Shown in pieces: positions 8,779 through 44,812 of a stretch of DNA of 44,812 nt. The DNA lies in contig JAFGNZ010000312.1 in assembly GCA_016926755.1 (NCBI GenBank), positions 1 through 44,812 of the forward strand, in the 5' to 3' direction. Both the position numbers and the translations under genes were made by a program. The notes under the pieces are model-generated. The model did no database searches. It saw only the letters and a list, made by a program, of their open reading frames with translations, and was not told the DNA's origin. Source of the DNA: Myxococcaceae bacterium (GTDB lineage: Bacteria > Myxococcota > Myxococcia > Myxococcales > Myxococcaceae). How positions within the stretch are numbered: position 1 is the first letter of the stretch; each line of letters starts with the position of its first letter.

Positions 8779-8861
8779 AAATATTCTTTTGTTTCCGCTG
8801 ATCGGCCTGCCTATCATCGTTGCTCCCCCTTTCATCGTTTCACCCTTTCATGGAGACCGAC

Positions 8862-9278
8862 ATGACGAAGGAGCTGTCCCCGGCCGAGGTGACCCGCATC
8901 ATCGACGATCATTTCAAGGCGGAGGCGACCATGAACATCGATGCCATCATGGCGACCTACACCGATGACATCGAGTTCGACGTCGGCGGGATGCCCGAGG
9001 TGCTGCGCGGCAAGCAGGCCGCCGCCGGTTTCTACAAGCAGCTCTTCAGTGATCTGGTGACGGAGAAGGTTACCCCCCTGCGCCGCCTGGTCGGCCCGAA
9101 CTTCATGATTGACGACTCGATCTTCGAGTGCCGCGCGATCGGCCGGCCCTTCGGCATCGAGGGCAAGAACCGGCCGGTGAAGTTCCGCCTCATGCACATC
9201 TTCGAGATCCGGGACGGGCGCATCAGCCGCGAGAACGCCTGGCTCGACATGGGAGCGATCCAGCGACAGCTCAGCTGA
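8862..9278 (+). CDS. SnoaL/NTF2-like protein
   Basis: 138 residues of the NTF2-like/SnoaL fold. An N-terminal helix pair (EVTRIIDDHFKAEATMN) is followed by IMATYTDDIEFDVGG and a C-terminal sheet ending FRLMHIFEIRDGRISREN. Members act as polyketide cyclases, isomerases or ligand-binding proteins on small, often aromatic substrates; the substrate here is unknown. I choose ATG 8862 (MTKELS) because GGAGA lies 5 nt upstream; ATG 8850 has no ribosome-binding site. It is the first gene of a three-gene plus-strand operon with a methyltransferase and a VOC protein, transcribed from an AT-rich leader. Confidence 0.8.
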   Translation: MTKELSPAEVTRIIDDHFKAEATMNIDAIMATYTDDIEFDVGGMPEVLRGKQAAAGFYKQLFSDLVTEKVTPLRRLVGPNFMIDDSIFECRAIGRPFGIEGKNRPVKFRLMHIFEIRDGRISRENAWLDMGAIQRQLS

Positions 9279-43438: not shown

Positions 43439-44704
43439 CTACACCTTCCCTGCCTGCCAGGCTCGCAGCAGCTCCTTCAACCTCTCCGACTGGTTGAGGG
43501 CGGGATCGTCGAGCACGGACTCCATGAGGAACCGGGTGGCCTCTCCGACGATCGGCGATGGACCGACTCCCAGAGTGGCCATGATGTCCCCACCGGTGAG
43601 CGCGAGCTCCTTGGCGCTCAAGGGGGGCTTCGCGGCAGCCAGGGCGCGCAGCCGCTCCTGGAGCCTCAGGAAGTCCGGGAGCCGGTCCGGGGCTCGGATC
43701 TGGATGCGCGCGTGAGCGACGGCGAGCAAGGGCTCCAGCTGCCCGAGCCCTACCCTGGCGAGCAGGCGCCGGAGCTGCGGATCGCTGTCTCCGATGCGAG
43801 CCTCGAGCGCGGCGTGCTCGACGAGGAGCCCCAGCAGCTCGGCGACCTTGTTGGGGAACTTGAGCCGGATCCCGATCTCGCGGGCCTGGGGTCCGCTGAC
43901 GAGATCCGCCAGCAGGGCCGCCATCCGGAGCTCCGCCTCGGCGGGGGCGATATGGGCGGCGGCGCGAGCCAGCCGAGCGGCTTCGGCGTCGGCGCGCGCC
44001 AGCTCGGGGAGGAAGATCTCCAAGAGCCCGGTCTCCGCCAGCAGCACGAGGCCAGACTCGGTGCGCGGGGAGAGGAGCAGCTTGACGAGCTCCTCGCGGA
44101 CCCGCTCCATGGCGACCTTCCGGAACACCGGGAGGGTGGGAGGGATGGCGGCCTGGGTGGCGGGTTCGAGCGTGAAGCCGAGCACCGCCGCGAAGCGCAC
44201 GGCGCGCATGGGGCGCAGGCCATCCTCGGAGAAGCGCTCGTGGGCGTCGCGCACGCACCGGATGACGTGGGCCTGAAGGTCCGCCTGGCCACCGAACGGA
44301 TCGACGAGCTCCCGGCTGAGGGGATCGTAGGCCATGGCGTTGATGGTGAAGTCCCGGCGCGAGAGATCCTCGGTGATGTCGCTCTCGAAGGTGACGGTGC
44401 TGGGGCGGCGCCCGTCGTGGTAGTCGCCCTCGCTGCGGAAGGTGGTGACCTCCACGTGGGTGCCGCCGATGACGACGGTGACGGTGCCGTGCTGGATGCC
44501 GGTGGGGATGACCTTCTTGAACGCGGCCTGGACCTCGTGGGGGTGGGCGCTGGTGGCGACGTCGAAGTCCTTGGGAGGGACGCCCCGGACCATGTCGCGG
44601 ACGCAGCCGCCCACGAGGAAGACGGCGAAGTTCAGCTCGCGGAGGCGGCGGAGGACGTCAAGGACGGGGCGCGGGATGGCGGCGTTGTGGAGGTTCGCGA
44701 GCAT
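43439..44704 (-). CDS. cca: CCA tRNA nucleotidyltransferase / poly(A) polymerase family protein
   Basis: Class II nucleotidyltransferase, 421 residues from [14 protein letters not shown]. The head domain has [13 protein letters not shown] and the metal-binding DFDVAT (Asp-x-Asp), followed by [27 protein letters not shown] and the neck motif [13 protein letters not shown]-type ([16 protein letters not shown]). The C-terminal body is helical without an obvious HD metal-phosphohydrolase motif. It would add or repair the CCA end of tRNAs; poly(A) polymerase is an alternative. The frame is open upstream, but that part is translated tRNA-like sequence and is excluded. Confidence 0.9.
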
Positions 44705-44730
44705 CAGCCGCGCTGCGCCAGAAAAGGAAG

Positions 44731-44774
44731 CGGCCCCGGCTGGAATCGAACCAGCGGCCTGCGGTTTAGGAAAC
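44731..44774 (-). pseudogene. 3' half of a tRNA-Arg(CCT) gene; candidate attachment site
   Basis: Read on the minus strand, the sequence gives an anticodon loop TTCCTAA (44766-44772), the 3' anticodon-stem strand ACCGC (44761-44765), a 5-nt variable loop (44756-44760), a T-stem GCTGG/CCAGC with T-loop TTCGATT (44739-44755), the acceptor 3' strand CGGGGCC (44732-44738) and discriminator G (44731). The 5' partner strands are missing: the bases that should complete the anticodon stem read ACCGT rather than GCGGT. There is no D-arm and no GGCCCCG acceptor strand in 44775-44812, although a whole tRNA would fit there. No CCA is encoded. Confidence 0.7.
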
Positions 44775-44812
44775 GGTACTGAGGCGCACGGCACGGCCGA
44801 GCACCGAGGGCA

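Follow-up and report, generated by a model that had tools for sequence, protein, structure and literature searches.

A half tRNA-Arg(CCT) beside cca probably marks the attR of a temperate-phage-like element

In the islands treated by Islander, a tyrosine integrase splits its target gene, the island sequence restores that gene, and the restored gene and the displaced fragment mark the two endpoints (PMC4383910). The element analysed here has in common with Islander-type tRNA islands and prophages a tyrosine integrase, a split target tRNA, a displaced 3' fragment at one end and an integrase beside the other copy of the core, and no difference emerged among the features tested. The argW gene of Escherichia coli has the anticodon CCU. 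The argW prophages KplE1 (CPS-53) and HK620 likewise target an arginine tRNA and carry the integrase next to the tRNA end and in the same direction; by comparison, the KplE1 core is 16 nt, as against the 49 bp shared here, and the host group and the integrase family are different (PMC2951348, PMC3509656). The insertion described below is of a well-known kind and offers little surprise in itself. With a probability of roughly 0.93, we consider the right edge of the window to be the attR of a temperate-phage-like element inserted in tRNA-Arg(CCT), a gene whose native position is immediately ahead of cca.

The window takes in all of contig C14 (44,812 bp), which belongs to a draft genome of about 9.6 Mb (9.59 Mb in 409 contigs). 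The last gene at its right end is cca, read leftwards, and half a tRNA-Arg(CCT) stands directly before it. Read directly, the minus strand at the right edge includes cagtaccGTTTCCTAAACCGCAGGCCGCTGGTTCGATTCCAGCCGGGGCCGCTTCCttttc. The following features are relevant, the last of them on a separate contig, C391, of the same assembly:

43439..44704, minus strand: cca-type tRNA nucleotidyltransferase, natively the next gene after the tRNA (Pfam PolyA_pol, PolyA_pol_RNAbd and tRNA_NucTran2_2; orthologues in 7/7 genomes of the genus)
44726..44774, minus strand: core (att) repeat of 49 bp, identical to C391:1-49 (genome comparison, pattern search, base-by-base match)
44731..44774, minus strand: 3' half of tRNA-Arg(CCT), the probable displaced host fragment at attR (sequence, ARAGORN, Rfam, base-by-base match to the intact tRNA of the congener G002)
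44775..44812, no strand assigned: putative end of the integrated element, 38 bp, the attP arm away from the integrase (identity to the G002 empty site ends at 44774; inference)
L005:76-1128 (contig C391), plus strand: tyrosine recombinase (integrase) of 350 aa, directly after the core copy and in the same orientation as the tRNA (Pfam Phage_integrase, PHROG integrase)

The fragment at 44731-44774 comprises the end of the 5' strand of the anticodon stem, the anticodon loop, the T arm, the 3' acceptor strand and the discriminator G. The Rfam tRNA model scores 18.9 bits at 44731-44798, as compared with a gathering score of 29, and fits from the anticodon to the 3' end and not in the 5' part. As the ACCGT found 5' of the anticodon loop and ACCGC can form no anticodon stem, the fragment is not a working tRNA. 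The preliminary description of this DNA, made from the sequence alone, had reported a half tRNA-Arg(CCT) at the right edge, with tRNA identity that stops abruptly near 44774. Both points hold: ARAGORN finds no whole tRNA in the 44,812-bp window, 44731-44774 is exact for the tRNA part, and BLAST similarity to the intact G002 site covers 44694-44774 and ends there, in agreement with the base-by-base comparison. The difference from G002 is thus an insertion at 44774/44775, which fixes one edge of a mobile element to a point between two adjacent bases. The 38 bp beyond it, which have no other match within the genome, are taken as the element end because the identity stops at this position.

We then compared the locus across the genus, in which all seven genomes carry cca. 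In the two genomes with the most similar cca, G002 (90% identical) and G006 (89%), the gene directly follows an intact tRNA-Arg(CCT) with no interruption, consistent with the earlier proposal that the fragment points toward its native downstream neighbour. No tRNA was found before cca in the four more distant congeners (cca 77–78% identical). With an intact site in two relatives and none in the four others, the half tRNA is not a long-standing trait of the genus; the insertion explains why it stands before cca in this genome. Consistent with the comparison, joining the G002 5' half in silico to the core of either C14 or C391 gave a complete tRNA-Arg(CCT), whereas neither the C14 end as it stands nor a modelled attP did so in the same test.

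The sequence 44726-44774 recurs once in the genome, at C391:1-49, with 100% identity over 49 bp, and this identity takes in 5 bases outside the tRNA. A pattern search allowing up to 3 mismatches returned exactly two genomic copies of the 43-base tRNA part of the core, and its reversed control gave no match under the same conditions. Chance occurrence of an exact 49-bp repeat in 9.6 Mb is not expected. Beyond the integrase, the 7,742-bp contig C391 encodes a regulator of the KilA-N/anti-repressor type, an excisionase-like HTH protein, a ParB-like protein, a sigma-region-4-like protein and a VRR nuclease. By Pfam and PHROG matches, these genes are of integration and early type only, and C391 resembles the end of a temperate phage, or of something closely related, where the integration and early genes lie. 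The suggestion in the preliminary description that an att site of an integrated element lies just outside the window is accordingly supported by a second core copy beside an integrase and phage-type genes. It had also predicted that this copy would lie within an intact tRNA; the copy exists and an integrase directly adjoins it, but the intact tRNA did not materialize, since three patterns (up to 3 mismatches) for the tRNA-Arg 5' half expected before C391:1 found nothing in the 409-contig assembly. Sequence upstream of the empty site in G002 matches contig C276 and, more weakly, C345, in neither case as far as the tRNA, and no contig with structural genes of the element was identified in this assembly.

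On this basis, we propose that the attP of the element carries a copy of the tRNA-Arg(CCT) 3' half, and that the C391 tyrosine recombinase, probably the enzyme responsible for the insertion, would have recombined attP with the chromosomal tRNA gene somewhere inside the 49-bp identical core. The element-borne copy should then complete the tRNA at the other junction, in the order host 5' half, C391 core and integrase gene, and the original 3' half of the host would have been moved to the element's far end, where it now adjoins cca. We infer that C14 and C391, separate contigs in a draft assembly that is broken at both junctions, bound a single element with a complete tRNA on the C391 side, and that this element is still able to excise. 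What is observed directly is the duplicated core with an integrase and phage-type genes next to it, the empty sites, and the same arrangement in other viruses and in another genus.

A second tRNA-Arg(CCT) gene (8848-8923) lies on contig C231, in an array whose 24 tRNA genes cover many specificities and which adjoins an HNH endonuclease gene (L051, 7512-10529), and the cell might therefore not depend on the split gene. Units of tRNA arrays with HNH genes have been described, for example in mycobacteria (PMC5966550).

Similar arrangements occur elsewhere. Relatives of the C391 integrase were found on four virus contigs (L083-L086), and a repeat virus scan with alignment gave the same four. Three of these (L084, L085 and L086) have a tRNA-Arg 3' half without the 5' half just ahead of an integrase of the same family. 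L084 also encodes a terminase large subunit and a head-tail adaptor, so that its core, lying amid phage genes, is best read as an attP. L083 retains, behind its integrase, the excisionase-like gene and the next gene as on C391; a distal core was not found in this record. In a genome of another genus, G041, an intact tRNA-Arg(CCT) and its 3' half lie 39.3 kb apart at the two ends of a prophage. This prophage uses the same tRNA gene and the same crossover region as the element described here. By comparison, its integrase belongs to another family, has a normal Arg I and sits at the far end, just before the displaced half and pointing into it. In this bacterial group, elements with two different integrase families and opposite layouts have thus inserted repeatedly at the tRNA-Arg(CCT) gene.

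These two layouts bear on an alternative in which one tRNA gene holds two or more elements in tandem. C391 would then be the end of one element next to the tRNA, C14 would hold the far end of another, and a core lying between the two would be collapsed. At 8425-11009 of L086, an integrase of the G041 type ends just before the tRNA-Arg core and one of the C391 type starts just after it; the meeting of the two families at one core suggests two elements side by side at a single tRNA-Arg site. Both families are known at this tRNA, and the G041-type integrase occupies the end next to the displaced half. Against the tandem reading, the assembly holds only two copies of the core, and no integrase lies in the 38 bp past the core on C14, a stretch too short to judge. 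We regard the tandem arrangement as unlikely. Far less probable is an old, decayed origin of the half tRNA, as a pseudogene or the relic of a lost element, with the C391 copy stemming from an unrelated insertion. Such a relic may exist in the genome G003, where a truncated integrase accompanies a diverged half tRNA and a search at up to 3 mismatches found no intact copy; in contrast, the two copies here are identical over 49 bp, including the 5 bases outside the tRNA, and two congeners have the intact gene at the same place. A chimeric contig end formed at the tRNA repeat would fit the position of the junction, 38 bp from the contig end, and the absence of the tRNA 5' half from the assembly, but is hardly credible given that the sole other copy begins beside an integrase and that the same arrangement recurs in separate virus contigs and another genus.

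Under the preferred reading of a single temperate-phage-like element, the insertion itself is ordinary, and the unusual part is the active site of the integrase. We aligned 34 loci, namely 33 relatives and the copy from this genome, picked by E-value alone and reaching down to ~34% identity. The residue aligned with the catalytic Arg I is His in 34/34 loci, within a TGWH motif, and the His position of HxxR is Gly in the 32 covered loci save one Ser and one Ala, two loci not being covered. Arg II, the second His and the Tyr are kept in every covered relative. In the C391 integrase (P0001), His214 occupies the Arg I position and Gly296 the HxxR His position, and alignment with XerD gives the same register; Arg299 (Arg II), His322 (His/Trp) and the nucleophilic Tyr332 are all present. 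By alignment, the canonical tyrosine recombinase active site thus appears to lack Arg I and the HxxR His and to keep Arg II, His/Trp and Tyr. A separate multiple alignment with normal integrases shows the same pattern, although its relatives were picked by their TGWH motif and it is hence biased. As the AlphaFold model of the C391 integrase (mean pLDDT 59) is too poor to place Arg I, its replacement by His is read from sequence alignment only.

The C391 integrase matches the NCBIfam Xer and integron integrase models weakly, far below their cut-offs, and some loci of its family contain in-frame stops. That these integrases turn up repeatedly next to intact tRNA genes, and also on virus contigs, suggests that they may be active. 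Only tentatively, and with some doubt, do we propose that they could form one family of tyrosine recombinases that targets tRNA genes, works with a rebuilt active site and is widespread both in this bacterial family and in its viruses. If so, another residue would stand in for Arg I, or the chemistry would be different. The literature searched yielded no description of a family with His at Arg I, which does not prove that none exists; an integrase family without the usual Arg I is the one point likely to surprise recombination specialists.

The distribution of the family was also followed beyond tRNA-Arg. Scanning a genome-contig collection with the C391 integrase returned no confirmed relative, and a phage collection gave one weak partial match only. 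Among 22 scanned genome loci of the bacterial family, nine relatives lie directly downstream of an intact tRNA gene on the same strand, the tRNA being tRNA-Phe, -Asn or -Thr. The genome under study contributes a tRNA-Thr(CGT) followed by an integrase of the same family on the same strand (contig C355; L052, 592-1903), probably another element. On its contig C335 (L061, 346-1040), an integrase of this family stands after a tRNA-Phe and is matched as two separate pieces, which probably mark a decayed element. On contig C7 of G003 (L028/L037), away from cca, the truncated same-family integrase stands between two tRNA fragments, the 3' half of a tRNA-Phe before it and the diverged tRNA-Arg(CCT) 3' half after it, a locus that reads as the relic of overlapping insertions.
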